Of a stretch of 64,000 nt of DNA, positions 33,739 to 56,255 are shown one piece after another. The stretch covers positions 3,393,401 through 3,457,400 of the forward strand of contig NZ_CP075187.1 in NCBI RefSeq assembly GCF_020510665.1. The letters run 5' to 3'. The position numbers and the translations under genes are program-made. The notes under the pieces are model-generated. The model was not told the origin of the DNA. It worked only from the letters and a program-made list of their open reading frames with translations, and made no database searches. Every line of letters begins with the position of its first letter. Within the stretch, counting starts at the first letter, position 1. The stretch comes from Dechloromonas denitrificans (GTDB taxonomy: Bacteria > Pseudomonadota > Gammaproteobacteria > Burkholderiales > Rhodocyclaceae).

Positions 33739-33975
33739 ATGGATTCTCTTGGCCTGATCCGCGAATTTCTTCATGACCGACTGGGGATTGCCCCGGATAC
33801 GGTTGTTCCCGATGCCCCCCTGGATGATCTTGGGGTCGATTCGCTGATGCTGCTCGAATTGATGTTCGAGTTTGAAGACCGTTTCGGCATCACCCTTTCC
33901 AAAGATCTGAAAAGCCCGAAAACCGTTGGCGAAATGGCGACGCTGATGGATCAACTACGCAGCGAACAGAGCTGA
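33739..33975 (+). CDS. acyl carrier protein (aryl-polyene cluster ACP 1)
   Basis: A 78-residue ACP. The phosphopantetheine attachment serine is Ser35 in LGVDSLMLLEL. It is a likely carrier for the aryl starter or growing polyene chain. The ATG at 33739 is preferred to an upstream TTG at 33730. No Shine-Dalgarno is visible. It is the first gene of a long, tightly packed run to 48196; the ketosynthase starts 3 bases after its stop. The phosphopantetheinyl transferase that must activate it is not in the window. Confidence 0.92.
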   Translation: MDSLGLIREFLHDRLGIAPDTVVPDAPLDDLGVDSLMLLELMFEFEDRFGITLSKDLKSPKTVGEMATLMDQLRSEQS

Positions 33976-33978
33976 GCG

Positions 33979-35229
33979 ATGAGCCAGCGGCGGGTAGCAA
34001 TCACCGGGCTGGGTCTGATCAGCCCCTACGGCGGCGACCTGTCCGATTTCTTTGCGCGCCTGCTCGCCGGTGAATCTGCCGTACGGCATTTGCTGACCGA
34101 CGATATTCCCCGCCCCCTGAGCATTCCTTTTGTCAGTTGCCCGGCTTTCGACGCCGATGCGACGCTCGGTCGGCCGCTGGCCGGCACCATGGATCGCTTC
34201 GCCCAGCTCGGCACCGCAGCCGCTTTCGATGCCTGGCAAGATGCCGGCCTGTTGCGCGGTCAACCTGCCGAAAACCGTGAAAACTGGGGCGTTGCCTGGG
34301 GCACCGCACTGGGCGGCACGCTGGCTTATGAAAAGGGCTATCGCGAACTGTGGCAGAAGGGGCGCGAGCGCGTCTCGCCGCTCTCGGTCATCCTCGGCAT
34401 GAACAACGCGGCCAATGCCCATATTTCGATCCAGCTCGGGCTGGGCGGTGTCAGCATGAGCCATACCGTTGCCTGTGCCTCGTCAGCCATCGCCATCGGA
34501 GAAGCTTTCCGTCGCGTACGCAGCGGTGAGGCAACGATCATGCTGACCGGCGGCTCCGATGTCCCGCAAGCCTACGGCGTGGCCCGTGCCTGGGAAGCGC
34601 TGCGCGTCATGGCCAGCGGCGATGAAACAAGCTCACCGACCGCCTGCCGGCCCTTCAGTGCCGACCGGACCGGGCTGGTGCTCGGCGAGGGTGGGGCGGC
34701 GCTGGTGCTCGAAGACTGGGAACACGCCGTGGCACGCGGAGCGCGCATCCACGCCGAACTGGTCGGCTATGGCACAAGCTGCGACCACAGCCACCTGGTT
34801 CGCCCGGAAGCAGCCGGCCAGGTTCGCGCATTGCATGCAGCCCTGGCTGACGGCGGCCTGCTGGCCGACGAAATCGATTACGTCAATGCGCACGGCACGG
34901 CCACCGCCGAAGGCGACCCGGTCGAAATCTCGGCCCTGAAAGCCGTTTTTGGCGAGCGTGCCAGCCGCCTGGCCGTCAGCGCCACCAAGTCGATGCACGG
35001 CCACCAGCTTGGCGCAGCCGGTGCGATCGAAGCGATCATCACGGTCCTTGCCCTGCGCGAACAGGCCATTCCGCCGACCGCACACCTGAACCAGGCTGAC
35101 CCGGCCTGCCTTGGCGTCGACCACGTTACGACGGCGCGGTGCGGCAAGCCCCTGCGCGCCGCCTTGTCCAATTCCTTCGCTTTTGGCGGCAGCAACGCGG
35201 TGCTCGCGTTTCGCAGCGTCAATGCCTAG
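33979..35229 (+). CDS. beta-ketoacyl-ACP synthase (aryl-polyene cluster KS 1)
   Basis: A 416-residue FabF-like ketosynthase with a complete triad: Cys166 in TVACASSA, His about 311 in HGTATAEGD and His about 344 in MHGHQLGAAGA. It condenses an acyl chain with malonyl-ACP. It starts 3 bases after ACP 1 and is followed by ACP 2. In E. coli-type aryl-polyene clusters a separate ketosynthase also accompanies the elongating KS/CLF pair; this copy may serve initiation or supply a second acyl chain. Confidence 0.93.
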   Translation: MSQRRVAITGLGLISPYGGDLSDFFARLLAGESAVRHLLTDDIPRPLSIPFVSCPAFDADATLGRPLAGTMDRFAQLGTAAAFDAWQDAGLLRGQPAENRENWGVAWGTALGGTLAYEKGYRELWQKGRERVSPLSVILGMNNAANAHISIQLGLGGVSMSHTVACASSAIAIGEAFRRVRSGEATIMLTGGSDVPQAYGVARAWEALRVMASGDETSSPTACRPFSADRTGLVLGEGGAALVLEDWEHAVARGARIHAELVGYGTSCDHSHLVRPEAAGQVRALHAALADGGLLADEIDYVNAHGTATAEGDPVEISALKAVFGERASRLAVSATKSMHGHQLGAAGAIEAIITVLALREQAIPPTAHLNQADPACLGVDHVTTARCGKPLRAALSNSFAFGGSNAVLAFRSVNA

Positions 35230-35247
35230 TTCCCGGAAATCACTGCG

Positions 35248-35532
35248 ATGACCCAAGACTCCGCCCAACAAGCCATCGAAGCACTTTTGCCGGAAGTGGC
35301 CGAACTGATCATTTCAGCGCTCAACCTCGACCTGGCCGCCGATGAAATCGAAGCCGATGCCCCGCTGTTCGGCGATGGCCTGGGGCTGGATTCAATCGAC
35401 ATTCTTGAACTGGCGCTGGTTATTTCGAAACGCTATGGTTTCCAGTTGCGCTCGGACAACGAAGACAATATTCGTATTTTCTCGTCACTGCGCGCCCTGG
35501 CAACCCATATCGCCAGCCAGCGAACGAAATGA
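35248..35532 (+). CDS. acyl carrier protein (aryl-polyene cluster ACP 2)
   Basis: A 94-residue ACP with the modified serine Ser49 in GLGLDSIDILEL. Its sequence is distinct from ACP 1. Two ACPs are usual in aryl-polyene clusters. It overlaps the following membrane protein gene by 4 bases. Confidence 0.92.
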   Translation: MTQDSAQQAIEALLPEVAELIISALNLDLAADEIEADAPLFGDGLGLDSIDILELALVISKRYGFQLRSDNEDNIRIFSSLRALATHIASQRTK

Positions 35533-36191
35533 CCGGGTTGGGCCCGACCGCCATTCTGCGCGGTCTTGCGGTCGGCCTGCTGGTCGTCGCCTGGGCTGTG
35601 CTAGCCCACTACGGCAGCGCCGGCGACAGCCCCTCCGATCTCTCTGCCGCACTGGCCTGTGCGCCACTCCTGGCGATTGTCGTCATCGTCCTCTGGCGCG
35701 TCGGCAGTCCCCTCCGGGTCGCACTCGGCGGCCTGGTCGTGCTTGCCGTGCTGGTCTGGCAGTGGCCGCTGCTGCGCCAGAACATCGCGCTGCTCTACTT
35801 TATCCAGCACGTCGGGACGAATCTGGCACTCGGCGCCCTGTTCGGCCGTACCCTGCTCAAGGGACGCGTGCCGCTCGTCACCCATTTCGCCCGGCTGGCC
35901 CACGATGGCATCATTTCGCCACTCAAGGAAAAATACACGCGGCGCGTGACGATCGCCTGGGCAAGCTATTTCATGTTGACGGCGCTGATCTCCACCATCC
36001 TGTTCGTCTTCGCCCCGGCGAGCGTGTGGTCGACCTTCGCTAACCTGCTTGGCACCGTATTGATCGCCCTGATGTTCGTCATCGAACACCTTGTCCGACT
36101 GCGTGCGCTGCCGCCGGAAGATCAGTCGAGCATCGCTGACACCATCCGCGGCTATCGCCTTTCCACCCGTCAAAAGACAGAAAGTTCATGA
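35529..36191 (+). CDS. COG4648-like membrane protein of the aryl-polyene cluster
   Basis: A 220-residue protein with about six hydrophobic segments (near 12-30, 42-58, 65-85, 90-105, 140-160 and 165-185). Similar uncharacterised membrane proteins (COG4648) accompany aryl-polyene and related fatty-acid-like clusters. It may hold the soluble synthase enzymes at the membrane, but that is inference. It overlaps genes on both sides by 4 bases. Confidence 0.7.
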   Translation: MTGLGPTAILRGLAVGLLVVAWAVLAHYGSAGDSPSDLSAALACAPLLAIVVIVLWRVGSPLRVALGGLVVLAVLVWQWPLLRQNIALLYFIQHVGTNLALGALFGRTLLKGRVPLVTHFARLAHDGIISPLKEKYTRRVTIAWASYFMLTALISTILFVFAPASVWSTFANLLGTVLIALMFVIEHLVRLRALPPEDQSSIADTIRGYRLSTRQKTESS

Positions 36192-37531
36192 GCCTGGTTC
36201 CGCTCCTCGCCCCCGCGCCACTCGATGACATTTTTGCCTGGCGGCAGAACGGCCCGGTCAGCATTGCCGATTTTCTGGCCGACACCTTCGCCCTGGCCGC
36301 CCGGTTGCCGGCCGGCCGGCACATGCTCAACCTGTGCCAGGACCGCTATCGTTTCACGGTCGGTCTGGCAGCCGGCCTGGTCAGCGACCGGATCAGCCTG
36401 CAGCCGGCCTCGCAATCGCCCGAAACACTGCGCCAGATTCAAGCGACCAGCCCCGATGTTTTCTGCCTGTGCGACAACGATTTCGACAGCCTCGATCTGC
36501 CGCGTCTCGATTTTCCCGAATTTAGCGCGGTCGACCGCGAAAATATCGATGAAATCCCGCTCATTCCGGCCAACCGGACTGCCGTCCGGCTGTACACCTC
36601 CGGCTCGACCGGAACGCCGGTTGCCCACGACAAGACCTGGGGTTTCATCGTCCAGAGCGCCTATGCCGAAGCCGAGCGGCTAGGCATCAACCGGCAAGTG
36701 CATCACGTTGTCGGCACCGTTCCCGCCCAGCACAGCTTCGGTTTCGAATCGACCGTACTGCTGGCGATGCACGCCCAAGCCCCATTCTGGGCCGGCAAAC
36801 CGTTTTATCCGCAGGATATCGTTGCAGCACTGAACGCCGTACCGCAACCCCGGATGCTGGTCACCACACCGTTCCATCTCTCCGCGCTGCTCGCCGCCGG
36901 CCTTGAACTGCCGCCGGTCGCACTGATCCTCTCGGCCACGGCACCGCTGTCCGCACAACTGGCCCGGGATGCCGAGGCAAGCTTTGGCGCGCCGCTCTAC
37001 GAAATCTATGGTTCGACAGAGACGGGGCAGGTCGCCAGCCGCCAGACAACGGCCGATCAAGCCTGGAAATTGCTGCCCGGCGTGCGTTTGCGCCAGGAAG
37101 AGGACGTCACGTTTGCCTCGGGTGGTCATATCGAGCGTGAAATTGCCTTGTCCGACGTCATCGAGATCCTGCCTGACGGCCGTTTCATCCTGCATGGCCG
37201 CCATGCCGACCTGATCAACATCGCCGGCAAACGTACCTCGCTGGCCTACCTCAATCACCAGATCTGCGCCGTGCCCGGCGTCTCCGACGCGGCTTTTTTC
37301 CTGCCCGACGAAGTGAACCCGGACGGCATCACCCGGCTCTGCGCCTTCGTCGTCGCTCCCGGCCTGAACAGCCGCCAGTTGCAGGCTGAACTGCGCCAGC
37401 GTGTCGATCCGATTTTCCTGCCGCGCCCGGTCGTCTTCATGGATGTACTGCCGCGCAACAGCACCGGCAAGCTGCCGCGCAAGCAGTTGCTCGAACTGTT
37501 CAACGAAAAGGTCGGACATGTCGAGCGTTGA
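36188..37531 (+). CDS. AMP-forming acyl/aryl ligase (aryl-polyene cluster)
   Basis: A 447-residue ANL-family adenylating enzyme. The P-loop is LYTSGSTGTP (about residues 136-145), the core motif YGSTETGQ near 276 and the C-terminal catalytic lysine in NSTGKLPRKQL near residue 435. It should activate an aromatic acid, presumably the hydroxybenzoate made by the chorismatase at 53849, and load it on an ACP, as XanA2 does in xanthomonadin synthesis. It is shorter than typical acyl-CoA synthetases (about 500-550). It overlaps both neighbours. Confidence 0.88.
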   Translation: MSLVPLLAPAPLDDIFAWRQNGPVSIADFLADTFALAARLPAGRHMLNLCQDRYRFTVGLAAGLVSDRISLQPASQSPETLRQIQATSPDVFCLCDNDFDSLDLPRLDFPEFSAVDRENIDEIPLIPANRTAVRLYTSGSTGTPVAHDKTWGFIVQSAYAEAERLGINRQVHHVVGTVPAQHSFGFESTVLLAMHAQAPFWAGKPFYPQDIVAALNAVPQPRMLVTTPFHLSALLAAGLELPPVALILSATAPLSAQLARDAEASFGAPLYEIYGSTETGQVASRQTTADQAWKLLPGVRLRQEEDVTFASGGHIEREIALSDVIEILPDGRFILHGRHADLINIAGKRTSLAYLNHQICAVPGVSDAAFFLPDEVNPDGITRLCAFVVAPGLNSRQLQAELRQRVDPIFLPRPVVFMDVLPRNSTGKLPRKQLLELFNEKVGHVER

Positions 37532-37820
37532 TTACCACTGGTCCGTACCGGCTGATCATCCGAGCTTTGCCGGCCATTTCCCCGGTCGTCCGATCGTGCC
37601 CGGCGTCGTGCTGCTTGATCAGGCCATCCGGTTCGCCGAGCAGTTGCTCGAACGTCCGGTATCCGGCTGGCAAATCGGCAACGCCAAATTTCTCAGCCCG
37701 GTCGCCCCGCAGGAAGAACTGACCTTCAGCCTGCTGTCCAAGCCGAGTGGTGCCATCGCCTTTACCGTCCGCGCCGCCGGACGTGACGTTGCCTCCGGCA
37801 GCCTGACCCCGGCGCCATGA
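37518..37820 (+). CDS. hotdog-fold FabZ/FabA-like dehydratase (aryl-polyene cluster DH 1)
   Basis: A 100-residue hotdog protein with the dehydratase motif GHFPGRPIVPGVVLLDQA (His20, acidic Asp near 34). It probably dehydrates 3-hydroxyacyl-ACP to build the polyene double bonds, like the ApeI-type enzyme. The ATG at 37518 overlaps the ligase gene by 14 bases; the longer open frame to 37401 is inside that gene. It is short compared with FabZ (about 150), as expected for the ApeI type. Confidence 0.85.
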   Translation: MSSVDYHWSVPADHPSFAGHFPGRPIVPGVVLLDQAIRFAEQLLERPVSGWQIGNAKFLSPVAPQEELTFSLLSKPSGAIAFTVRAAGRDVASGSLTPAP

Positions 37821-38722
37821 CCCGGCCGGCCACGCCAAGCTGGCTGCGTCAGCAGGAACGCAGCAACCTCGCCATCCTCCGCCTGATGGTTTGGATTTCG
37901 CTGACCTTCGGCCGGGCTATCGGCCGCGTCGTGCTCTATGGCATCACCGCCTATTACGTGCTTTTTGCGCCGCGCGCCCGCCACTTCAGCCGTGAATACC
38001 TGCACCGTGCACTTGGCCGCTGGGCGGAATGGTCGGACGGCTTTCGTCACGTCTTCAGCTTCGCCAGCACCATTCACGACCGTATCTACCTGCTCAACGA
38101 CCGTTTCGACCTGTTCGACATCGAAGTCATCGGGGCCGATCCGGTGCATGAGCTGGCTGCCGCCCAAAGCGGGGCGGTATTGATCGGCGCCCATCTCGGC
38201 AGCTTTGAAGTATTGCGCGCCGTCGGCCGGGGCAGGGCGGGGCTCAAGGTCGCCATGCTGATGTACGAGGAAAATGCCCGCAAGATCAACGCCACGCTGG
38301 AAGCGATCAACCCGGCGGCAACCCAGGACATCATCTCGCTCGGCCGCATGGAATCGATGCTCGAAGCCCGCGACAAGCTCGACCAGGGCTACCTCGTCGG
38401 GATTCTTGCCGACCGCAGCCTGAGTGACGATCCCACGGTCGACTGCGAATTTCTCGGCGAAATGGCCCCGTTTCCGGTCGGTCCCTTCCGCCTCGCCGCG
38501 ATGCTGCGCCGCCCGGTGTTCTTCATGACCGGCCTGTACCTGGGCGGCAACCGCTACCGGATACACTTCGAGGCGCTGGCCGATTTCACCAACACACCGC
38601 GCAGCGAACGCGACGCAGCGATTCGCGCCGCCCAGCAGCATTACGCCGAGCGACTCAGCCACTATTGCCGCCTGGCGCCTTACAACTGGTTCAACTTCTT
38701 CGATTTCTGGCAGAAAAAATGA
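37817..38722 (+). CDS. LpxL/HtrB-like lipid acyltransferase (aryl-polyene cluster)
   Basis: A 301-residue membrane-associated acyltransferase of the lipid A late-acyltransferase family. It has a hydrophobic N-terminus (about 20-50) and the catalytic HxxxxE-type motif in GAHLGSFEVLR (about 133). A member of this family in aryl-polyene clusters is thought to join the polyene carboxylate to a lipid or glycerol carrier. Its stop overlaps the next ATG (ATGA). Confidence 0.87.
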   Translation: MTRPATPSWLRQQERSNLAILRLMVWISLTFGRAIGRVVLYGITAYYVLFAPRARHFSREYLHRALGRWAEWSDGFRHVFSFASTIHDRIYLLNDRFDLFDIEVIGADPVHELAAAQSGAVLIGAHLGSFEVLRAVGRGRAGLKVAMLMYEENARKINATLEAINPAATQDIISLGRMESMLEARDKLDQGYLVGILADRSLSDDPTVDCEFLGEMAPFPVGPFRLAAMLRRPVFFMTGLYLGGNRYRIHFEALADFTNTPRSERDAAIRAAQQHYAERLSHYCRLAPYNWFNFFDFWQKK

Positions 38723-39288
38723 TCAAGCGACTTTTTGCCGGCCTCATTCTCGCGGCACTCACCATCCCGGCCCTGGCCGCCTTCGACCTCGGCCAGCTGA
38801 TGGGCGAACTGGCCCGCCACAAAGGCGGCAAGGCCCGTTTCGTCGAGAAGAAATACCTTGCCGTACTCGACAAGCCGGTCGTCTCCAGCGGCGAAATGAG
38901 CTACACCGCACCCGACCGGCTGGAAAAACGCACGCTGATGCCCAAGGTCGAAACCCTGCTGCTCGACAAGGACATGCTCAGCATCGAGCGCGAAAAACAG
39001 AAGCTGACGATCAACCTGAGCAACCAGCCGGAAGCGCTGGCCTTCATCGACAGCATTCGCGGCACGCTGACCGGCAACCGCGCCGCGCTGGAGAAAAACT
39101 ACGCGCTTTTCCTGAGTGGCAATCTGGATAAATGGACGCTGACGCTGTTGCCGAGCGATCAGAAAATTGCCGCCCTGGTGCAGCGCATTACCGTCAGCGG
39201 CAGCAAGAACCAGATCCGCAGCATTGAATACCTGCAGGCCGACGGCGACCGTTCGGTGATGAGCATCGAACCGATCGACAACCGATGA
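38719..39288 (+). CDS. LolA-like outer-membrane lipoprotein/lipid carrier
   Basis: A 189-residue periplasmic protein with a signal peptide (MIKRLFAGLILAALTIPALA) and a LolA-type fold (segments GGKARFVEKKYLAVLDKPVVSSGEM in pieces and RITVSGSKNQIRSIEYLQADGD). LolA shuttles lipoproteins; here it probably carries the lipid-linked polyene across the periplasm with the MMPL pump encoded next. The ATG at 38719 overlaps the previous stop; the frame back to 38665 lies in that gene. Confidence 0.85.
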   Translation: MIKRLFAGLILAALTIPALAAFDLGQLMGELARHKGGKARFVEKKYLAVLDKPVVSSGEMSYTAPDRLEKRTLMPKVETLLLDKDMLSIEREKQKLTINLSNQPEALAFIDSIRGTLTGNRAALEKNYALFLSGNLDKWTLTLLPSDQKIAALVQRITVSGSKNQIRSIEYLQADGDRSVMSIEPIDNR

Positions 39289-41627
39289 GCCCCGCCCGCC
39301 GCAGCTTTCTGCTCTGGCTGCTGGCCATGCTGGCCGGCGCTGCAATCGTCTGGCACAGCCGGTTTACCGCCGACATGTCGTTCTTCCTGCCGTCCAAGCC
39401 GACGGCCGAGCAGCAGGTGCTGGTCGATCAGCTCAAGGAAGGCGCGGTTGCCCGATTGCTGATGGTCGCGATCAGCGGCGGCAATGTTGAGCAACGTGCC
39501 ACCCTGTCACGCGATTTGCGCGGTCGACTCGGCAAAATGCCCGAATTCACTTCGGTCCAGAACGGTCAAAGCGGCAGCGAATCGGCCGACCGCGACTTTC
39601 TGTTCAAGCACCGCTATCTGCTCAGCCCGAGCGTCCGGCCCGAACGTTTCACGGTCGACGGCCTGAAAGATGCCATTTCCAACAGCATCGACCTGCTCGC
39701 CTCGCCAGCCGGCATGATGCTCAAGCCGCTACTGACCAGCGACCCGACCGGAGAACTGGTCGCCATCCTGAGCCAGCTCAATGCCGGCGCTCAGCCCGAT
39801 AGCCGGGCCGGCGTCTGGGCTTCGCGCGACGGCGAACGCGCCATGCTGCTGATCCAGACGCATGCCCTGGGCTCCGATACCGATGGCCAGGAAACCGCCA
39901 TCCAGCTGATTCGCCAGCAGTTCGCCGAAAGTCGCGCGGCAAGCGGCCTGAGCGATGCCCGCCTGACGCTATCCGGCCCCGGCCTGTTCGCGGTCAATTC
40001 GCGGGCCACGATCAAGGACGAAGTCAGCCAGCTGTCGCTGATCAGCAGCATCGCAATCATTGCCGTGCTGTTCTTCGTCTATCGCTCCTTGCGCTTGCTG
40101 ACGCTCGGCCTGCTGCCCGTCGTTTCCGGCGCACTGGCCGGTGTCGTCGCAGTCAGCCTGGCTTACGGCACGGTTTTCGGCATCACCGTCGGCTTCGGCT
40201 CGGCGCTGATCGGCGAGGCCGTCGATTATTCGATCTACTACTTCGTGCAATCCAGCCGAATGGGCGTCGATGCCTGGCGCGAACGTTTCTGGCCAACTAT
40301 CCGGCTTGGCGTGCTGACCTCGATCTCCGGCTTTGCCGCCTTGCTCTTTTCCGGCTTTCCCGGCCTGGCACAACTCGGTTTGTATTCGCTGGCCGGCGTG
40401 CTGACTGCCGCACTGGTCACGCGCTTCGTATTACCGCAACTGGCCGGCACAACGATAGAACGCCGCGATCTGACGCCACTCGGCCATCTGCTGGAACGCA
40501 GCATCGGACAAGTCCAGCGACTGCGCTGGCCAATGCTTGTGCTGGCAATCGCGGCAGCCACGACGCTTTATCTCGACCGCGATTCGCTGTGGAACCCCGA
40601 ATTGTCGGCCCTCAGCCCGGTCAGCCAGGCCGATCAGCAAGTCGATCTCGCGCTGCGCGCCGACATGGCCGCGCCGGATTCACGCTACCTTGTCGTGATC
40701 AATGCCGCGGACCAGGAAACAGCCCTGCAGATGGCCGAACGTACCGGCTTGCAGTTGGACCGCCTGGTCGAAAGCGGGCAGCTCGGCGGCTACGACAGCC
40801 CAACCCGTTTCCTGCCGAGCCAGCTGAGCCAGGCCCAGCGGCAAGCCAGTCTGCCATCGAGCGATGAGCTTGCCCCCCGGCTCAAGACTGCGCTGCAGGA
40901 TGCGCCACTGGCCGCCAGCAAACTCGATCGCTTTCTTGCCGATATCGAATCGGCCCGTCGACAACCGGAAATCACGCCGGCCTCGCTGGCCGGTACGCAG
41001 CTCGCCCTCGCGGTCGATGCCATGCTGCTCAAGCATGCCCAGGGCTGGAGTGTGCTGCTGCCATTGCGCCCGCCACAAGACGGAAGCGCAATGATCGATG
41101 CCGCGGCCGTGCGTGCCGCGCTGACAGGAGACACCGCCGGGCAGGTACTGTTCATCGACATGAAGGGCGAGTTCGACAAGCTTTACAACGATTACCTGCA
41201 CGAGGCATCGCAGCTTTCGCTGGCCGGTTTGGCCATCATTGTGCTGTTGCTCGCCATCACCCTGCGTTCGCCGCGCCGCCTCGGGCGTGTCCTGCTGCCG
41301 CTGATTCTTGCCGTATTGATCGTCATTGGCGGCTTGCACCTGCTCGGCGAACGCCTGCACCTGCTGCACCTGATCGGCATGCTGCTGATTGTCGCGGTCG
41401 GTTCCAATTACGCCCTGTTTTTCGACCGGGCCGATGAGGCGACAGGCCCCGATCCGGAAACACTGGCTTCGATGCTGGTCGCCAACCTGACCACGGCGAT
41501 CGGTTTCGGCACGCTCGGCCTGTCCAACGTACCGATCCTGCACGCTGTCGGCGTCACCGTCGGCCCCGGCGCCGTGCTGGCATTGCTGCTGGCGGCGATA
41601 TTCGCCCCACGTGGAACAGCCGGATGA
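39285..41627 (+). CDS. MMPL/RND-family exporter (aryl-polyene cluster)
   Basis: A 780-residue inner-membrane protein of the MMPL/RND superfamily. The layout is the usual 1+5 plus 1+5 helices with two periplasmic loops; a helix block at 245-390 includes TVGFGSALIGEAVDYSIYY, and a second block at 640-780 includes LLIVAVGSNYALFFDRADEAT. Acidic residues in those helices are the expected proton path. It likely extracts the polyene lipid from the inner membrane for handover to the LolA-like protein. Overlaps neighbours by 4 bases. Confidence 0.9.
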   Translation: MSPARRSFLLWLLAMLAGAAIVWHSRFTADMSFFLPSKPTAEQQVLVDQLKEGAVARLLMVAISGGNVEQRATLSRDLRGRLGKMPEFTSVQNGQSGSESADRDFLFKHRYLLSPSVRPERFTVDGLKDAISNSIDLLASPAGMMLKPLLTSDPTGELVAILSQLNAGAQPDSRAGVWASRDGERAMLLIQTHALGSDTDGQETAIQLIRQQFAESRAASGLSDARLTLSGPGLFAVNSRATIKDEVSQLSLISSIAIIAVLFFVYRSLRLLTLGLLPVVSGALAGVVAVSLAYGTVFGITVGFGSALIGEAVDYSIYYFVQSSRMGVDAWRERFWPTIRLGVLTSISGFAALLFSGFPGLAQLGLYSLAGVLTAALVTRFVLPQLAGTTIERRDLTPLGHLLERSIGQVQRLRWPMLVLAIAAATTLYLDRDSLWNPELSALSPVSQADQQVDLALRADMAAPDSRYLVVINAADQETALQMAERTGLQLDRLVESGQLGGYDSPTRFLPSQLSQAQRQASLPSSDELAPRLKTALQDAPLAASKLDRFLADIESARRQPEITPASLAGTQLALAVDAMLLKHAQGWSVLLPLRPPQDGSAMIDAAAVRAALTGDTAGQVLFIDMKGEFDKLYNDYLHEASQLSLAGLAIIVLLLAITLRSPRRLGRVLLPLILAVLIVIGGLHLLGERLHLLHLIGMLLIVAVGSNYALFFDRADEATGPDPETLASMLVANLTTAIGFGTLGLSNVPILHAVGVTVGPGAVLALLLAAIFAPRGTAG

Positions 41628-42271
41628 GCCCGACGCTACGGACCATCCAACAGTGTTCAGGCGCATCGACACTGATGGTGCTGTTGCCCGGCGCCTACAT
41701 GAAGCCGGAAGATTACGTCGCGGCCGGCTTTTTCAGCCGCATCACGGATCTCGGCCTGAAACTCGACCTTGTCGCGGTCGACCTCGATCTGGCGCAAATT
41801 TCCAGTGGCGCGGCACTACCAGCGCTCCAGGCGCAGATCATCGCCCCGGCCCGAGAGCAGGGCTACTGTCAAATCTGGCTCGGCGGCATTTCGCTCGGCG
41901 GCCTGCTGACGCTGTGCCACAACGCCGATACACCCGGCAGCTTCGATGGTCTGTGCCTGCTCGCGCCTTACCCCGGCTCCCGCCTGACAACCAATGCGAT
42001 TGTCCGGGCCGGCGGCCTGGCGCAATGGCAGGCAACACCCGAGCAACTCGATGACCCTGAATTTCGCGCCTGGCAGTGGCTGAAAAACCCGCCGGCCGGA
42101 CTTCCCGTATTCGTCGGCTACGGCAGCGAAGACCGCTTTGCCGACGGGATGCGCCAGATTGCCGAATGCTTCCCCGATCACGCTTCGCTGGCCGTTCCCG
42201 GCGGTCATGAATGGCCGGTATGGCAGGTTTTGTGGGAACATTTCCTGCACAGTGACTTATTCCCCAGATAA
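41624..42271 (+). CDS. alpha/beta hydrolase within the aryl-polyene cluster
   Basis: A 215-residue hydrolase-fold protein with nucleophile elbow GGISLGGLLT (about 89-98), acid candidate in YGSEDRFADG and His in PGGHEWPVW. No signal peptide was found. It is translationally coupled to the MMPL gene. It could act as a thioesterase releasing a product from the ACP, since no hotdog thioesterase of the ApeK type is present in the cluster; that role is inference. Confidence 0.75.
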   Translation: MSPTLRTIQQCSGASTLMVLLPGAYMKPEDYVAAGFFSRITDLGLKLDLVAVDLDLAQISSGAALPALQAQIIAPAREQGYCQIWLGGISLGGLLTLCHNADTPGSFDGLCLLAPYPGSRLTTNAIVRAGGLAQWQATPEQLDDPEFRAWQWLKNPPAGLPVFVGYGSEDRFADGMRQIAECFPDHASLAVPGGHEWPVWQVLWEHFLHSDLFPR

Positions 42272-42274
42272 ACG

Positions 42275-43797: not shown

Positions 43798-43805
43798 TCC
43801 CCGGC

Positions 43806-44972: not shown

Positions 44973-45004
44973 ACGGGCAGCCAACCGGGGGCAGGCCCCT
45001 CTGA

Positions 45005-45010
45005 TAAAAT
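45005..45010 (+). promoter_or_regulatory. possible internal -10 element before ketosynthase 2
   Basis: TAAAAT, with 9 bases to the ATG at 45020 and 27 to the GTG at 45038. The 65-base gap is the largest within the plus arm, so a second promoter is plausible. Confidence 0.35.
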
Positions 45011-45037
45011 TCACTGTTCATGAATTCGAGGTCCGCC

Positions 45038-49815: not shown

Positions 49816-49907
49816 GCGCCCAACCCTCTATTTCTTTTGTCCGGAATAATCCGATATATCTATTACAAAAGGAATATTGCTAAATCAAATTTTGCATATA
49901 ATTTTAA

Positions 49908-50234
49908 TTATTCAATGGATTGGAGCAGCAAGGATCGAATTTGCTGTTCATCGACCGGACGAACCAGACGACCCGTTTCTACCCCCTGCTTGAGCAGCAC
50001 CAGCGTCGGCCAGAGTTTCACGTGAAACGAGCGCCCCAGACGTCGCCCCGGTCCATCTTCGATTTTCAGATGCCGGATAGCCGGAAAACCGTCCATGACG
50101 CCAGCCAGCCAAGGTTGAACGGCGCGGCAGTGACCACACCAGGGCGCACCGAATTCAATCAAAACGGGGCCTTCCAATGCGTCGACCGCAGCACGGGCCG
50201 GCTCGATTTCTACGTACTCGCTGTTCATCCCCAT
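49908..50234 (-). CDS. thioredoxin family protein
   Basis: A 108-residue thioredoxin fold with the active site APWCGHC (about residues 30-36). CGHC instead of CGPC suggests a redox potential nearer to PDI than to classical thioredoxin. No signal peptide, so cytoplasmic. An AGGAG ribosome site lies 6 bases before the ATG. It starts 24 bases after the antiporter gene and may be the last gene of the halogenase-to-antiporter operon. A parS-like palindrome lies within its coding sequence. Confidence 0.88.
   Translation of the reverse strand: MGMNSEYVEIEPARAAVDALEGPVLIEFGAPWCGHCRAVQPWLAGVMDGFPAIRHLKIEDGPGRRLGRSFHVKLWPTLVLLKQGVETGRLVRPVDEQQIRSLLLQSIE
50015..50028. other. parS-like ParB-binding palindrome
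   Basis: GTTTCACGTGAAAC, the same 14-mer as in the site at 25804-25819, flanked A/G on its two sides. It encodes FHVK within the thioredoxin gene. About 14 kb from the DnaA-box region, within the usual ori-proximal zone. Confidence 0.82.
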
Positions 50235-50258
50235 GGCTCGCTCCTGATCGAAAGCCGC

Positions 50259-51458
50259 TCAATTACTGCGAAAGATGATTTCCTTCATGCGCGCCAGCTT
50301 GGGGGCGACAACCGGCACGGTCAGCATCGTGCTGGCCACCGCCATCAGCAACAAGGCGGTGAAGGCTTCGCTGGTGATGATCTGCTTGTCGAGCAGGATA
50401 TTGGCAAAGATGATCATGATCAGCGCCTTGGTTTGCAGCAGCCAACCAATGATGCTGGCTTCGCCGGGTTGCCATTTAAGGATCTTCCCGGCCAGCCGGA
50501 TACCGAGCAACTTGCCGGCAATCGATGCGCAAAGCAGCAAGGCGGCACCGACGAAAACGGCTTCGCCACCCAGCGCCCAATTGGTTCGCAGCCCGGTACT
50601 GAGGAAAAAGACCGGCATGATGACCAGCAAGACGTGATGGCGCATCAAATCCATTTTTTCCTGGTTGAACCATTCCGCCTCGATGATCGCGCCTGCCAGG
50701 AAAGCGCCGACCATGAAATGCAGGCCTGCCCAATCTGCCCCGAAGGAGCAAAGTGCCAGCCAGATCAAGGCGACGTACCAGCGGTCGCGTTCGTTGAGGC
50801 GCATCATCAACTGACGGAAAGCGTAACCGGCGACGGCAAAGGCGATCAGGAAGGCCAGTTGTTTGCCGACCCGCTCCCAGTCCATCAGGATCAGCGCCAG
50901 GACGCCCCAGATGGCGATATCGTCGAGACTGGCATAGCGCAGGATGCGCTGGCCGATCGGCTGACGCAGGACATCGAGCTTCTCCATCAACAGGATCAGG
51001 ATGGGCAGTGCGGTGACGGCACATGCCATGCCAACACCGAGGATGAATTGCCAGGTCAATGCCTGGGGGCCCATCCAGCCGTCGTCAAGCATCAGGATGG
51101 CGGCAGCAAGACAACCGAACAGCAACGGTGTGCCCAACGCCAGCCCCGCCGTGATCGAGCTTTCACGACGATGTGCCCAGGCTTTTTTCAGATCCAGTTC
51201 GATGCCGGCAATCATCACGAACAACATGACCGCCCACCAGGCAATGCCGTTCAACGACTGAACGACCGCCGGGGTAAAGACAAAAGCGTAGTAATCGGGA
51301 AAAGCGCGGCCAAGAACGCCCGGCCCGAGCAGGATACCGGTCATGATCTGGACAACGACCAATGGGGCGTAATAATCGGTCCGCCCGATACGCCAGATCA
51401 GGTAGGGCAGGGTGAAAATGATCGTCATCGCGATCAGGAATATTTCTGTCGTGTTCAT
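50259..51458 (-). CDS. cation:proton antiporter (CPA2-like)
   Basis: A 399-residue membrane protein with 11-12 helices of the Na+/H+ exchanger (KefB/NhaP-like) family. Signature stretches are GRAFPDYYAFVFTPAVVQSL, IAGIELDLKKAW (acidic transport-site region) and YASLDDIAIWGVLALIL. It exchanges protons for Na+ or K+. Its start overlaps the glycosyltransferase stop by 4 bases, so it is cotranscribed with the pigment-tailoring genes. Confidence 0.88.
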   Translation of the reverse strand: MNTTEIFLIAMTIIFTLPYLIWRIGRTDYYAPLVVVQIMTGILLGPGVLGRAFPDYYAFVFTPAVVQSLNGIAWWAVMLFVMIAGIELDLKKAWAHRRESSITAGLALGTPLLFGCLAAAILMLDDGWMGPQALTWQFILGVGMACAVTALPILILLMEKLDVLRQPIGQRILRYASLDDIAIWGVLALILMDWERVGKQLAFLIAFAVAGYAFRQLMMRLNERDRWYVALIWLALCSFGADWAGLHFMVGAFLAGAIIEAEWFNQEKMDLMRHHVLLVIMPVFFLSTGLRTNWALGGEAVFVGAALLLCASIAGKLLGIRLAGKILKWQPGEASIIGWLLQTKALIMIIFANILLDKQIITSEAFTALLLMAVASTMLTVPVVAPKLARMKEIIFRSN

Positions 51459-52210
51459 TGGAACTTGCGAAGTATCAACAGCGGAAGGCGGATCACGAAA
51501 CCGATGAACAGGCGGGTATGCATCCAGGTCAGCAGCGTGTTGTCACGCAAATAACGGAAATGCGAAACGCCGCCTTCATCCGCCCTGAAATAGCGTACCG
51601 GCGCGTCGATATTGACCGGTCTGACACCCGCCCAGCAGAGCCGGACCACCGCTTCCGGATCGAAATCGAAACGCCGCATGAAACGGTTCGATTGCATGAT
51701 CCGCTTCAAGGGGGCAATCGGATAAACCCGAAAGCCATACAAGGAGTCGCCAATCCCCATCCACAGCGTTTCCAGGTTGGCCCAGCCATTCGATACCTTG
51801 CGGCCATTGACCCGCAAGGCAGGCGCATCGGCATCGAATACCGGCTTGCCAAGCACCATCGCCCCAGGTTGCGCCTGCGAGGCGGCCATGAAATCGGGAA
51901 TCAGCTGGGCCGGATGCTGGCCATCCGAATCCATGGTCAACGCATGCGTGAACCCAGCTGCCGCGGCTTGTGAAATACCTTCGAGCACAGCCGAGCCTTT
52001 GCCGCTGTTTTGCGGCAGGACAACAATGCGCAACGCGGTATCGTGCTCGGCCAGAGCCAATAATTGCTCGGTGCTGCCATCAGTGCTGCCATCGACAATC
52101 ACCCAGACAGGCGCCCACTGGGCACGGGCGGCCCGCACAGTATCGAGAACCTTGGGACCGGGGTTGTAACTGGGAATGATGACGAGATGCGTCGCGGAAA
52201 CTTCAGGCAT
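51455..52210 (-). CDS. family 2 glycosyltransferase
   Basis: A 251-residue GT-A glycosyltransferase: nucleotide-binding start LVIIPSYNPG, the VDGSTDGST loop and the metal motif DSDGQHP (about 94-100). One or two hydrophobic stretches lie at the C-terminus (FIGFVIRLPLLIL). It may add a sugar to the polyene or its lipid anchor, consistent with the coupled PlsC-like gene and the polysaccharide deacetylase in the plus arm. The starting Met is 9 bases after the acyltransferase gene. Confidence 0.88.
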   Translation of the reverse strand: MPEVSATHLVIIPSYNPGPKVLDTVRAARAQWAPVWVIVDGSTDGSTEQLLALAEHDTALRIVVLPQNSGKGSAVLEGISQAAAAGFTHALTMDSDGQHPAQLIPDFMAASQAQPGAMVLGKPVFDADAPALRVNGRKVSNGWANLETLWMGIGDSLYGFRVYPIAPLKRIMQSNRFMRRFDFDPEAVVRLCWAGVRPVNIDAPVRYFRADEGGVSHFRYLRDNTLLTWMHTRLFIGFVIRLPLLILRKFQ

Positions 52211-52219
52211 GGAAATCCA

Positions 52220-53008
52220 TCAGGCAACGAATGCTGCGGTCGACAAGCCCTGCGCAGTGATTTTCAATTCACTGCGGAAATAGGCTTCAAGCTCGCGCGT
52301 AAATGCTTCGACATTGCCTGGGGCAGAAAAACGACGGCCCAGGCGAATCGTGCAGTGCAGGGGCAAGATCGGTCGGCGAAACAACGGCCAGGCCTTGCCC
52401 AGATAAGGGGTGGAGAACTCGATCAGCAAGGTTTGCACCGGAACGGCTGTCCGTCCGGCAATCAGCCCGGTGCTGGGCGTGCAAGGATCAACCGGGAAAT
52501 CGCTTGTCCGCGTACCTTCCGGGAAAATGACCAGTTGCGCGCCACTGGCAAGCTCTTCCCGGGCATTGAGGATCATTTCGAGCGGCGCATTGTTGCGAAT
52601 ATAGCGTGCCAACCGAGCCGCCGCACCGAACAGGATATTGTCCATCAGCGCAGCTTTCATGACGCACACCGCATTCGGCAGGCGCGACACGATCATCACG
52701 GCATCGAGCAGGGAAGGGTGATTGGCCGCAAGAATCAACGGGCCTTCATCGCGCAGTTGATCAAGCTCGGAAAGCTCGAAACGACAGGCGCAGAAAAAGG
52801 ACAGGATCGACAAATAAACCCGGAAGCCGCCTGAAATCATGAACCGGCCACAAGGCTGGGCAAAGCGGCGCGGCAAGAGCGGGTACAGGATCATGGCAAA
52901 TGGCAGCCAGCCCAGGCAAATCAGGGCCAGCGCGCCAAGGCCAAGGAACATGGCCAGATATTCGTAGGCAATCCACCACGGCTTGCCTGCCCGACCCTGA
53001 TCAGTCAT
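52220..53008 (-). CDS. PlsC-like lysophospholipid/acyl acyltransferase
   Basis: A 262-residue membrane acyltransferase with N-terminal helices, the catalytic NHPSLLD motif (NHx4D, about residues 95-101) and FPEGTRTS (about 166-173). It belongs to the 1-acylglycerol-3-phosphate acyltransferase superfamily. In this operon it is more likely to acylate the pigment than to serve general phospholipid synthesis. It overlaps the MipA gene by 8 bases. Confidence 0.88.
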   Translation of the reverse strand: MTDQGRAGKPWWIAYEYLAMFLGLGALALICLGWLPFAMILYPLLPRRFAQPCGRFMISGGFRVYLSILSFFCACRFELSELDQLRDEGPLILAANHPSLLDAVMIVSRLPNAVCVMKAALMDNILFGAAARLARYIRNNAPLEMILNAREELASGAQLVIFPEGTRTSDFPVDPCTPSTGLIAGRTAVPVQTLLIEFSTPYLGKAWPLFRRPILPLHCTIRLGRRFSAPGNVEAFTRELEAYFRSELKITAQGLSTAAFVA

Positions 53009-53852
53009 TCACCATCACGCGGGTGGAGGACTCGCCGAGAACCCAGGTAATCGCCGCACCTGCCGCAACGTAATCCTTTTGGCGGACCAGCGGGCTGTCT
53101 TCAAAAACCGATCCGCCGAGATTGTCGTAACGGACAAAGCCGCCCAGCCAATAGCCAGGAAAGCGCTTCGACAGGGCCAGCAGATACTGCATGCCGGCAT
53201 AACCTGCCTTGGCTTCGTAGGCAGGCCGACCTGCCGTGGCATAACGTGGATCGACCGAATAATAGTAGGCATGCTGCTTTTGATCACCGAACAGGGGGCC
53301 GGCCAGCATGCCCAGGTTCCAGCCCGGCATGCCGGGCAAATCGGTGATGTCCATATTCAGCTTGGGATGGAAAACCCAGCCGATTTCCTTGGGCGAGCCT
53401 TCAACGGTAATCGCGGCGCGCAAGGGCATGAGCAGTTTGATGAAGCGGGCCTTGTTGTCCGAACGCCAGAATGTGACATCCATTTCAGGGCCGATTTCAA
53501 AGGTTCCCTTCAGATCTGACATGCCGGCCCGCGCCGTAATGTCCTTGCTGCTGACCGGTGGAGAAAGGGCAACACTGAGCGTCAGGTCAAGACGGTCGGA
53601 ATCGAAGAAACTGCCGCGTATACCGTGACGGTCCGCCTTGAGGAAATCACCGTGATAAGTGAAGTGCGGAACCGGCATCAGGAAATTATTGGTCTGGTCC
53701 GAGCCGCGATAAGACGGGAAGCTGAAGGCAGCGACACCCGCGCCAATTTCCCACAGGGGCTTTTCTTCAACGGCCTGCGTGGCGCCGGAAGAGAGGCCAA
53801 GACACAAGGCGATCAAACGGATAATCCGGCGGTATTGTGGGCTGGTCATCAA
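53001..53852 (-). CDS. MipA/OmpV family outer-membrane protein
   Basis: A 283-residue protein with a signal peptide (about 1-26, ending SSGATQA) and a predicted beta-barrel: alternating aromatic strands such as EIGAGVAAFSFPSYRGSDQ and LALSKRFPGYWLGGFVRYDNL, typical of the MipA/OmpV family. E. coli MipA links murein enzymes; other members are channels. As part of the pigment operon it may help insert or hold the product in the outer membrane (inference). Confidence 0.88.
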   Translation of the reverse strand: MMTSPQYRRIIRLIALCLGLSSGATQAVEEKPLWEIGAGVAAFSFPSYRGSDQTNNFLMPVPHFTYHGDFLKADRHGIRGSFFDSDRLDLTLSVALSPPVSSKDITARAGMSDLKGTFEIGPEMDVTFWRSDNKARFIKLLMPLRAAITVEGSPKEIGWVFHPKLNMDITDLPGMPGWNLGMLAGPLFGDQKQHAYYYSVDPRYATAGRPAYEAKAGYAGMQYLLALSKRFPGYWLGGFVRYDNLGGSVFEDSPLVRQKDYVAAGAAITWVLGESSTRVMVND

Positions 53853-54877
53853 CGATTCCCCAGAAAGTGCAAGGCAAAAGCCTCTATTTCAATCAACAGG
53901 TCGTGTCGGCAGATATCGGCCTGAACAAAGACAATTTCCACGTCGGCACCCATCAGCGGCAGCAAGATATTGCGAGCCGGCAAAAAGTCGGTGGCATGGC
54001 GAATGTAGACACGGAAGGAAAGCTCGGACATGACAAAGGTGTCCGAACAGGCAAGGCGGTTGGCTTCGGCAAGCACCGCTGCAATATTGGCCAGCGATTC
54101 CCGACATTGCCCGGCCAAATCGCCCGGATGAACGGTCTGATGGCCTACAATGCTCGCCGTGCCGGAAATGAACAGGACTTCCTGCGCCGGAAGATAGGCC
54201 AGTACCGCCCGCGAAAAAGTCGGGCTGCGCGGACCATACTCGCTCGGGTAGTTGTAGGCACTGACCTGGCGTGGATTTTCAACAGGTACAGCCGGGTAAA
54301 TGCCAGCCATGAAAGCAATGCTCAGGGGCCCCCCCGCGACACCCAGAGCGCATGCTGCCGGCACATTGCCGGTCGCACCCCGGGAAAATTCGAGGAAGCT
54401 GTCCTGGCGACCGATATTGAACTGGCGATAACGCTCGAGTCCGGCCGTTTCGGTATTGATATCCGACAGATAGTTCCAGACACGCCAAAGATGTGGCCGT
54501 TGCTGCGCATCGAGCAAGGTAAATATCCGGCGGTAAGCTTCGGCACTGGCTTCCTGGAGCGGTGAACTGCCTGCTTGCCCGGCAAAATCAGCTTCATCCA
54601 GTTCAATCACGCCGAACAGCAGCGGGCCGGCACAACGCCAGCTTATCCCTTCAAACTCACCGGACTGGCAAACCACATCGCTCAACCAGGCCTCGTCCAT
54701 CCTCTCGCTGTTACCGCCCAGCAAAGGCGTGACAACCGTCTGGAGCGGCCAGTCCGTTTTTTTGCCGGAACCGGCCGGAAAGCCGATGGCGCTGCCGCCA
54801 AGCACATGGTCTGCCCGTTCGGCCAAGGCCGAAGGCAGATCCTGAATAGCGCAGTCGGAAAGAAACGAGAGATTCAC
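53849..54877 (-). CDS. chorismatase (FkbO/Hyg5/XanB2 type)
   Basis: A 342-residue enzyme that hydrolyses chorismate without an ammonia donor. Members include XanB2, which makes 3- and 4-hydroxybenzoate for xanthomonadin. Recognisable regions are LWRVWNYLSDINTETAGLERYRQFN in pieces, ALGVAGGPLSIAFMAG and the C-terminal SELSFRVYIRHATDFLPAR stretch. It would give the aryl starter that the ligase at 36188 activates. Product choice (3-HBA, 4-HBA or dihydro acids) cannot be told by eye. It overlaps MipA by 4 bases and abuts the halogenase. Confidence 0.85.
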   Translation of the reverse strand: MNLSFLSDCAIQDLPSALAERADHVLGGSAIGFPAGSGKKTDWPLQTVVTPLLGGNSERMDEAWLSDVVCQSGEFEGISWRCAGPLLFGVIELDEADFAGQAGSSPLQEASAEAYRRIFTLLDAQQRPHLWRVWNYLSDINTETAGLERYRQFNIGRQDSFLEFSRGATGNVPAACALGVAGGPLSIAFMAGIYPAVPVENPRQVSAYNYPSEYGPRSPTFSRAVLAYLPAQEVLFISGTASIVGHQTVHPGDLAGQCRESLANIAAVLAEANRLACSDTFVMSELSFRVYIRHATDFLPARNILLPLMGADVEIVFVQADICRHDLLIEIEAFALHFLGNR

Positions 54878-56217
54878 TAGATCGAATTGATGGCCGTGTC
54901 GTCAACCCGGCGAATATTGAAACGCCTACGTTTCCAGCCTGTGAAAGCCCTTCGCGGCTGGATGATGTTGGCAATGTAATAAAGCACTTTGAACATCCCG
55001 ATCGAACGCCAGATCGGTGTCTTGCCGAAAATATCCCCGGCCAGCACGGAGAGCAGGGCTTCCTTGACCCGGAAAATATTCTTCGGATACATGAAGAAGT
55101 CCCGCATGATCGGGTTGGTGACCCGATAAATGAACCAGGAAAACTCCTTGGGGCCATGCTTCATCAGGGCGTCGAAACGCTTGAGTGCCGCCGCAGCCTC
55201 GGCCGGCTTGCGCAGACAGGTATCGATCGCCTCGGCACCGATGACCCCACTGTTCATGGCCAGCAGAACACCGGACGAAAATACCGGATCGATAAAGGCG
55301 TAGGCATCGCCCAGCAACAGATAGTTGGCCCCGTGGTTGCGCTCCGAAACGTAAGAAAAGTTACCGGTCGCCTCAACCTGATTGACCAGGGTTGCCATTT
55401 TCAGCCGTTCAGCCAGCGCCGGGCACATCTCGATCCCATCGCGCAAAAACTGCTCAATATTCCGTTGACCGCGGGTTTTCATGAAATACGGCCAGGTCAC
55501 CATCCCGACACTGGTGACATCGCCCTGCATCGGAATGAACCAGAACCAGCCATGTTCAAACCAGAAAATGGTGATATTGCCTTCCGCTTGCCCCTCGTGT
55601 CGCTTGGCACCCGAGAAATGGCCGTAGATTGCCGAACTATTGTGTTTCGGATTGCGATGCTTGATCTGGAAACGATTGGCAAGAAATGTGTCGCGGCCGG
55701 AAGCATCGACCACGAATCGGGCCTTCCATTCAACCTGGCGACCATCGTCATGCTCGGCCAAAACGTTGGCACCGCTATTGTCCGGCAGAAAATCGACCGC
55801 CCTGGCCTTACAGTTCTCATGGACCTCGACGCCTTTTTTCTCGGCGTTGCGGATCAGGATGGTATCGAACTCAGCCCGCTTGACCTGGTAGGCGTAGGGC
55901 ATCGATTTATCCCAGGCATCGGCAAAGTGAAAACACTGCGACATCTTGTCGTGGCTCGGCGAAACAAACTCGGCGCCCCATTTCTCCATGCCGATCGCCT
56001 TGACCTCGTCGGCAATCCCCATTTTTTCGAAAAGCGGCAGATTCGCCGGCAACAGCGATTCACCAATGTGAAAACGTGGATGACGTGCTTTTTCGAGCAA
56101 AACGACCTTGTAGCCCTTTTCGGCCAGAATCGGCGCAATGGTCGTACCGGCCGGTCCGCCACCGATGACCAGGACATCGCACGTCTGACTCTCCGCTACC
56201 TTGGCTTGTTGTTCCAT
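54877..56217 (-). CDS. FAD-dependent halogenase-like oxidoreductase
   Basis: A 446-residue flavoprotein of the flavin-dependent halogenase group. The FAD motif GGGPAG is at residues 19-24, RFHIGESLLP at about 48-57, Lys79 sits where the family's active-site lysine is expected and the halogenase motif WxWxIP reads WFWFIP (224-229). A halogenase fits xanthomonadin-type pigments, which are brominated. Related enzymes with the same motif are simple oxidoreductases, so halogenation is inferred. It starts the minus arm, abutting the chorismatase gene. Confidence 0.85.
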   Translation of the reverse strand: MEQQAKVAESQTCDVLVIGGGPAGTTIAPILAEKGYKVVLLEKARHPRFHIGESLLPANLPLFEKMGIADEVKAIGMEKWGAEFVSPSHDKMSQCFHFADAWDKSMPYAYQVKRAEFDTILIRNAEKKGVEVHENCKARAVDFLPDNSGANVLAEHDDGRQVEWKARFVVDASGRDTFLANRFQIKHRNPKHNSSAIYGHFSGAKRHEGQAEGNITIFWFEHGWFWFIPMQGDVTSVGMVTWPYFMKTRGQRNIEQFLRDGIEMCPALAERLKMATLVNQVEATGNFSYVSERNHGANYLLLGDAYAFIDPVFSSGVLLAMNSGVIGAEAIDTCLRKPAEAAAALKRFDALMKHGPKEFSWFIYRVTNPIMRDFFMYPKNIFRVKEALLSVLAGDIFGKTPIWRSIGMFKVLYYIANIIQPRRAFTGWKRRRFNIRRVDDTAINSI

Positions 56218-56255
56218 GATTTACTGCCTATTCGACTCTCTGTGGTGGCGAAGAA

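Follow-up and report, generated by a model that had tools for sequence, protein, structure and literature searches.

Which pigment is made by a two-armed gene cluster near the end of the Dechloromonas denitrificans genome, and does the cobalamin-binding radical S-adenosylmethionine (radical-SAM) protein encoded at its edge belong to the pathway? The window analysed here is a stretch of 64,000 nucleotides, bases 3393401-3457400 of genome G000 (contig NZ_CP075187.1), a single-contig sequence totalling 3,457,400 bases (3.46 Mb) from the Dechloromonas/Azonexus group. Within it the cluster forms two convergent arms: a plus-strand arm (33739-48196), which opens with an acyl carrier protein (ACP) gene at 33739 and closes with a ketoreductase gene ending at 48196, and a minus-strand arm (49908-58568), with the radical-SAM gene at its start (58568) and a thioredoxin-like gene at its end (49908). 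We report that these genes probably constitute an arc-type aryl-polyene cluster, similar to those for xanthomonadin and arcuflavin, with the linked radical-SAM protein as an optional component. The chemical steps are predicted from sequence, and they suggest an arcuflavin-like polyene-resorcinol hybrid primed with 3-hydroxybenzoate as the likeliest product.

Arcuflavin was described from Azoarcus sp. BH72, where the arc genes occupy two loci, azo3910-3921 and azo0253-0264 (PMC3949708). According to Table 1 of that report, the first locus encodes, in order, a peptidoglycan-binding protein, ketosynthase (KS), chain-length factor (CLF), dehydratase, ketoreductase, Na/H antiporter, AGPR, glycosyltransferase, acyltransferase, MltA-interacting protein, chorismatase and halogenase, and the second a methyltransferase, polysaccharide deacetylase, hypothetical protein, exporter, LolA, acyltransferase, dehydratase, AMP ligase, a further hypothetical protein and an ACP (PMC3949708). 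Insertion mutants in arcK and arcT were colourless, ArcB yielded both 3- and 4-hydroxybenzoate, fluorinated 3-hydroxybenzoate and a methionine-derived methyl group were incorporated into arcuflavin, and the pigment was proposed to be an ester of a polyene with a dialkylresorcinol (DAR), the resorcinol fragment having m/z 293.3 in BH72 (PMC3949708). AGPR apart, the window carries the same genes, and within each arm their order is unchanged; both organisms also have dar genes elsewhere in the genome (PMC3949708). It departs from BH72 in that the two BH72 loci are unlinked, with arcF (AGPR) placed among the minus-arm genes, and in that Table 1 for BH72 lists neither a radical-SAM gene, nor a BamE-like lipoprotein, nor a KS/ACP pair beside the ligase arm (PMC3949708). 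In the window, protein classes were assigned with Pfam and NCBIfam family models, and arc names are given by position, meaning place in the gene order of the BH72 loci; from position alone, not sequence, the alpha/beta hydrolase fits arcO and the DUF1615 gene fits arcL. Polyene and DAR clusters of an arcuflavin-like kind have also been reported for Dechloromonas aromatica RCB, which belongs to the same genus group (PMC3949708, Figure 2C, Table S1).

The likeness extends to other aryl-polyene systems. With the xanthomonadin-type clusters of Xanthomonas and Lysobacter the window shares a KS with a short CLF-like partner, two dehydratases, a ketoreductase, an ACP, LolA and a chorismate enzyme of the XanB2 type; as these accounts present them, the Xanthomonas cluster has a halogenase, the Lysobacter cluster has none, and the known xanthomonadins carry no DAR moiety (PMC3691225, PMC3949708). 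Among the ape genes of E. coli CFT073 and Xenorhabdus (PMC8253772), those for ApeC, D, E, G, H, I, J, L, M, O, Q and R have counterparts in the window, ApeJ of E. coli CFT073 corresponding to two genes, for a GT2 glycosyltransferase (37%) and an LpxL-like acyltransferase (32%). The comparison with the E. coli CFT073 genes gave no match among the window proteins for ApeA, B, F, K, N or P, and the two ketosynthases (KS1 and KS2) also match each other's Ape counterparts, more weakly. Relative to E. coli CFT073, a chorismatase, halogenase, deacetylase, MipA protein and antiporter are additional in the window, whose two arms converge, whereas the E. coli and Xenorhabdus ape genes are described as all running in one direction (PMC8253772).

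Evidence on the starter comes from the chorismatase, in which Gly239 and Cys323 align with the Gly and Cys of Hyg5, where FkbO has Ala. We take these two residues to steer the enzyme towards hydroxybenzoate, and the Hyg5-type pair is kept in 96 of the 96 chorismatase homologues aligned. In the flavoprotein encoded next to it, K79 and the WxWxIP motif are kept in all 79 aligned homologues, and its closest solved relatives are halogenases; WxWxIP and the catalytic Lys are features with established roles in halogenases. Both residue counts refer to distinct homologues with at least 85% query coverage and no internal stops.

A polyene-DAR ester is predicted because a dar operon is present as well, 1.66 Mb from the cluster and at about 1.757-1.764 Mb of the same genome (locus L214, 4689-11691). 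Its DarB matches the StlD/DarB family model NF005293 at 592 bits (cut-off 450) and the narrower DarB model NF053539 at 487 bits, below the cut-off of 550. DarA, without a family match, is called by position only, and the operon further encodes an ABC permease, an ABC ATPase, a KS-like protein and, scoring slightly below the Pfam cut-off, an ACP-like protein, in a layout that resembles the Azoarcus dar genes. In the genus sample, which comprises 72 genomes including G000, DarB was found in only 40, so that the arcuflavin-like hybrid is likely in G000 but not necessarily genus-wide.

Conservation within the genus was followed in 27 same-genus regions fetched around the CLF gene. All 17 plus-arm genes were matched in order in 12 of them; in 8 others genes were lost at the cut edge of the fetched stretch, and in 9 of the 27 DUF1615, the hydrolase or the methyltransferase is absent inside the stretch (DUF1615 from 6 and present in 21, the methyltransferase from 3, the hydrolase from 3). 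No rearrangement of the plus arm was seen in the 27 regions, and six fail a mechanical order test only since the cut-off KS1 query lands on KS2. The two arms are directly adjacent in 25 regions, the exceptions being G053, with a gap of about 15 kb, and G024, with one of about 165 kb. Recurrence of the same order in these regions argues that the gene set is not assembled by chance. At the outer edge of the minus arm, a second set of 20 genus regions has the radical-SAM match 72-774 bases from the flavoprotein match in every case, with the BamE-like lipoprotein matched between the two in 16.

The protein at that edge (56922-58568, minus strand; PF04055, PF02310) joins a B12-binding to a radical-SAM domain, and the cysteines of its CxxxCxxC motif (C211, C215, C218) are invariant in 26 aligned sequences, the others being 66 to 94% identical to the window protein. 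It scores below the cut-off of every NCBIfam model among its matches: the best of these, HpnJ, gives 177 bits against a cut-off of 578, and BchE gives 149 against 481, which places it in neither family. The domain architecture is common to HpnJ/BchE-type proteins, from which the window protein is set apart by its linkage to aryl-polyene genes. A profile search of solved structures returned AprD4, TokK, OxsB, CysS, 9ccb and TsrM at E<=1e-6, a range of relatives that does not settle the reaction, and an AlphaFold model from the 26 sequences reached a pLDDT of 61, insufficient for searching by fold. Most of the cobalamin radical-SAM enzymes known so far are methylases, BchE and OxsB being among the exceptions (PMC13331322). 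The window protein is most likely an optional tailoring enzyme of the polyene or its anchor, for which C-methylation would be a first guess; its optional character is suggested by linkage in several arrangements and by genome G021 (locus L052), where this gene alone is gone and both arms are kept. A second B12/radical-SAM-like protein, with NCBIfam scores below cut-off, is the product of a minus-strand gene (29096-30664) some 3 kb ahead of the cluster, farther out than the regions retrieved from relatives extend.

Within the genus sample, where CLF matches weaker than E 1e-90 (G004, G032, G041) were counted absent, 50 genomes have both CLF and the radical-SAM gene, 5 have CLF only, 4 have the radical-SAM gene only and 13 have neither (p 2e-7 by Fisher's test, without correction for ancestry). 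The corresponding numbers for the 52 genomes of at least 90% completeness are 40, 2, 2 and 8. Three of the four genomes with the radical-SAM gene and no CLF (G006, G009, G025) keep parts of an arc arm on the same contig; G013 does not.

Further afield, matches to the radical-SAM protein at E<=1e-120 were found in 9 of 399 genomes of the order, 15 of 121 of the host's own family, 9 of 80 of the family of G094 and 1 of 22 of the family of G252, while a class-level search of 369 genomes returned the host genome only. Most of these groups are samples, and every one of the 23 carriers found outside the genus was examined further. Of these, 21 have CLF and 12 have DarB, so the radical-SAM gene follows the polyene genes in more genomes than it does the dar genes; among 48 genomes of the same order, 12 have CLF at the bound used for the carriers (1e-20), the sampling frames being different. 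Arc genes lie within 10 kb of the radical-SAM gene in 15 of the 23 carriers (G925, G954, G967, G1012, G862, G874, G882, G853, G878, G903, G094, G252, G440, G900 and, at about 9 kb, G454), and contig ends cut the neighbourhood in G930 and G966. Its place varies: before the flavoprotein gene in the window, G440 and G925, after the GT2 gene in G094 and its relatives, beside the GT2 and PlsC genes with no lipoprotein match in G252, and between an arc arm and the dar genes in G967. A single 20 kb stretch of this last genome (L220, C1 3493900-3513899) contains the arc arm, the radical-SAM gene and the dar genes.

The gene also occurs in the named Accumulibacter loci L055, L056 and L065, and it is linked to the cluster in the Dechloromonas denitrificans and D. 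agitata loci L035 and L032, respectively. Viewed from the chorismatase, 35 of 78 loci contain it and 43 do not; a whole-genome search covering 29 of these 43 gave no match at E<=1e-120 in 28, and in the 29th (L059, the same place as G966) the radical-SAM gene sits at a contig end with the lipoprotein gene beyond. DarB, found about 19 and 23 kb from the radical-SAM gene in G1007 and G985, was considered as its true partner and not preferred, no DarB match (E<=1e-60) being present in 15 of 54 carriers in the genus and 11 of 23 outside it. Among CLF-positive genus genomes DarB weakly predicts the radical-SAM gene (36 with both, 1 with DarB only, 14 with the radical-SAM gene only, 4 with neither; p 0.035), and a link between the radical-SAM gene and the hybrid product may exist.

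Could the arms make something other than an arcuflavin-like hybrid? The original prediction, made for 33739..56217, held that the locus is a complete pathway for a lipid-anchored outer-membrane polyene built from hydroxybenzoate. Its aryl-polyene, xanthomonadin-like and hydroxybenzoate-primed character is borne out by Ape homology, by the chorismatase residues and by the published arc clusters (PMC3949708); as a complete pathway it falls short, the dar operon elsewhere in the genome making a polyene-DAR ester the better prediction. An ordinary lipid-anchored aryl polyene without resorcinol keeps a minor but appreciable chance: acyltransferases, GT2, deacetylase, LolA and MMPL proteins are all encoded within the cluster, and DarB is unmatched in 18 of the 55 genus genomes with CLF, but G000 possesses an Azoarcus-like dar operon and Azoarcus with the same gene set is reported to make arcuflavin (PMC3949708). 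Both products, lipid-anchored polyene and hybrid, could be made side by side. That the KS, CLF and ACP set serves ordinary or polyunsaturated fatty acids we find hardly credible; KS1 is indeed FabF-like, but KS2 and CLF are of the ApeO/ApeC type and of the pair type seen in PDB 7f28 and 6qsp, and throughout the genus regions their genes lie together with those for the chorismatase and the aryl ligase. Placement of these proteins in ordinary fatty-acid clades, which had been named as what would overturn the original prediction, finds no support in their homology, judged without a tree. The additional proposal that deacetylase, DUF1615, MipA, antiporter and hydrolase genes define a new cluster subtype is very improbable. 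Four of them (deacetylase, MipA, antiporter, DUF1615) do lack a counterpart among the annotated E. coli CFT073 ape genes, but the deacetylase, MipA and antiporter are already published as arcN, arcC and arcG of BH72 (PMC3949708), which contradicts the subtype for three of the five genes, and named loci of Hydrogenophaga, Zoogloea and Aquitalea have deacetylase matches next to their arc genes. These three are standard arc components. The claim to novelty thus fails for the comparable genes, and the part worth following is the B12/radical-SAM gene, outside the interval first noted.

Several observations weigh against our reading of the locus as an arc-type cluster with an optional radical-SAM step. 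Ligase, ACP1 and first dehydratase reach only 27-36% to Ape proteins, and no Ape protein matches the second dehydratase; BH72 has arcA and yet its arcuflavin is reported to be non-brominated (PMC3949708), so the flavoprotein may not halogenate; and cobalamin/radical-SAM enzymes are not all methylases (PMC13331322). The co-occurrence counts ignore shared ancestry, and if G004 (E ~1e-46) and G032 (~1e-42) are counted as having CLF they become 50, 7, 4 and 11 (p 9e-6). Five genus genomes (G001, G020, G021, G040, G057) keep CLF without the radical-SAM gene, and DarB is likewise correlated with that gene in the genus (39 with both, 1 with DarB only, 15 with the radical-SAM gene only, 17 with neither). 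Outside the genus, two of the 23 carriers (G944 and G900) are without CLF, and six (G1007, G985, G947, G1003, G884, G944) have no arc gene in the fetched stretch of about 10 kb, of which one side in G884 and G1003 is only about 7.5-8 kb long. The six carriers, together with the missing CLF of G944, would also suit the idea that the radical-SAM and lipoprotein genes are unrelated hitchhikers beside the arc arm of one lineage, as would the frequent conservation of a TauE-like gene beyond the radical-SAM gene; moreover, in G094 the radical-SAM protein is 75-76% conserved against 41% for chorismatase and 46-47% for CLF, which could mean another, older function. We nevertheless hold hitchhiking to be rather unlikely, for the gene occupies different places in the arc neighbourhood in different families, and CLF is far commoner among the carriers outside the genus than in the same-order genomes, with the difference in sampling noted above. 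The fuller proposal, that the radical-SAM enzyme performs a genuine, recurrent tailoring step in betaproteobacterial aryl-polyene synthesis, so that the polyene or its anchor would be C-methylated, or modified by other radical chemistry, and the structure of the pigment would depend on the supply of cobalamin, is put forward tentatively, with a chance we judge to be slightly under even. The literature consulted on arcuflavin and xanthomonadin (PMC3949708, PMC3691225) describes no such modification, and no description of a radical-SAM gene in an aryl-polyene cluster was found among the titles and abstract openings listed in a literature search, subscription journals lying mostly outside its coverage.

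All protein classes named in the original prediction were recovered by Pfam and NCBIfam models where it had placed them, except that the alpha/beta hydrolase is called through sub-threshold matches only and the second dehydratase from its position and homologues. It had passed over the GT2, ApeG-like, inter-arm chemoreceptor and thioredoxin-like genes and, beyond its interval, the lipoprotein and B12/radical-SAM genes (56256-58568). The plus arm starts with ACP1 (33739..33975; PF00550, 50 bits; 31% to ApeE), followed by KS1 (33979..35229; PF00109/PF02801), which is FabF-like and ApeR-like (33% over 416 columns to E. coli ApeR) with its active Cys in TVACASS, and by the ApeE-like ACP2 (35248..35532; NF006617, 140 bits against a cut-off of 70; 52% to ApeE); the serine motifs of the two ACPs are DSL and DSI, respectively. 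Next come an ApeG/COG4648-like membrane protein (35529..36191; arcU by position; 27% to ApeG, no Pfam match above cut-off), an ANL-type aryl ligase (36188..37531; arcT by position; PF00501, PF13193; 27% to ApeH), an ApeI-like hotdog dehydratase (37518..37820; PF22818 above cut-off; 36% to ApeI) and the LpxL-like acyltransferase that forms one half of ApeJ (37817..38722; arcR by position; PF03279). An ApeL-like LolA carrier (38719..39288; PF19574, the LolA_3 class; 26% to ApeL) and an ApeM-like MMPL/RND exporter (39285..41627; PF03176; 24% over 759 columns to ApeM) precede the alpha/beta-hydrolase-like protein (41624..42271), a NodB-type polysaccharide deacetylase (42275..43075; PF01522, 93 bits), a SAM-dependent methyltransferase (43072..43797; arcM by position; PF08242 and others) and the DUF1615 lipoprotein (43806..44972).

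The distal part of the same arm holds the elongation machinery. KS2 (45020..46231; NF006618, 552 bits against a cut-off of 407; 43% to ApeO), an ApeO-like elongation KS, has its active Cys in STACSSS and is adjoined by the ApeC-like CLF (46228..47031; PF13723, scanned on 46228-46785; PDB 7f28_A and 6qsp_B; 28% to ApeC), a short KS N-domain with no Cys at the active-site place. The second dehydratase (47025..47480), of the hotdog type, in the ApeP place and arcI by position, is assigned from position and homologues, with no Pfam match at E<=1; the FabG-type, ApeQ-like ketoreductase (47477..48196) matches NF004200 above cut-off and FlxB at 281 bits, below cut-off, and reaches 47% to ApeQ. The G+C content of the plus arm (0.63-0.65, 34 to 48 kb) is higher than that of the minus-arm side (0.54-0.59).

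Between the arms, on the minus strand and outside the pathway, lies a PAS/HAMP chemoreceptor gene (48193..49815; PF00015, PF08447); of the genus regions compared, only that of the sister genome G031 has a chemoreceptor here. The minus arm then comprises the thioredoxin-like gene (49908..50234; PF00085), a CPA2-type antiporter (50259..51458; PF00999), the GT2 glycosyltransferase that forms the other half of ApeJ (51455..52210; arcE by position; PF00535), an ApeD-like, PlsC-like acyltransferase (52220..53008; arcD by position; PF01553; 28% to ApeD), a MipA-family outer-membrane protein (53001..53849; PF06629, 140 bits), the Hyg5/XanB2-like chorismatase proposed to supply the hydroxybenzoate starter (53849..54877; arcB by position; PF21168, with TIGR04444 below cut-off) and the flavin-dependent halogenase-like protein of the Trp_halogenase kind (54877..56217; arcA by position; PF04820, 106 bits, and PDB halogenases). 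Beyond it, a lipoprotein with a weak BamE-like stretch (56256..56897; BamE E 0.0045, below cut-off) leads to the radical-SAM gene. At other places in the window, the product of 12112-13584 resembles a transposase, judging from the start of the protein. The record ends with what we take to be yidD- and rnpA-like genes (63036-63613), which places the origin probably near the window end.

These components can be arranged into a putative pathway. The chorismatase would turn chorismate into 3-hydroxybenzoate, perhaps with some 4-hydroxybenzoate, and the ANL ligase would load it onto an ACP. KS1 is likely the ApeR-like starter KS, and KS2/CLF, the ketoreductase and the two dehydratases would elongate the starter into a polyene. 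Methylation of the aryl hydroxyl oxygen is the probable task of the methyltransferase, and the flavoprotein may halogenate the aryl group. GT2, the LpxL-like and PlsC-like acyltransferases, deacetylase, LolA, MMPL, MipA and the DUF1615 lipoprotein would assemble an anchor and bring the product to the outer membrane; a literature search on the lipid structure of aryl polyenes turned up no usable paper. In line with the proposal for arcuflavin, the polyene acid would form an ester with a dialkylresorcinol. The cobalamin/radical-SAM protein would add an optional step, most likely as a C-methylase of the aryl polyene or its anchor.

DUF1615 may have a lytic-transglycosylase fold. A conserved Glu, together with GxMQ-like and NAG motifs, marks lytic transglycosylases. 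Sequence comparison of DUF1615 with solved structures gave two matches at E ~0.1 and nothing useful, and Foldseek gave no match at E<=0.001, VIA-align being a second look at the same candidates. If the protein is lytic-transglycosylase-like, its presence beside MipA would suggest local opening of the cell wall in the pigment route.

The cluster is thus a linked, genus-wide version of the arc set and a member of a published kind. If the radical-SAM reading is true, the recurrence of this B12-dependent gene would mean that part of the pigment family carries an unrecognised modification.

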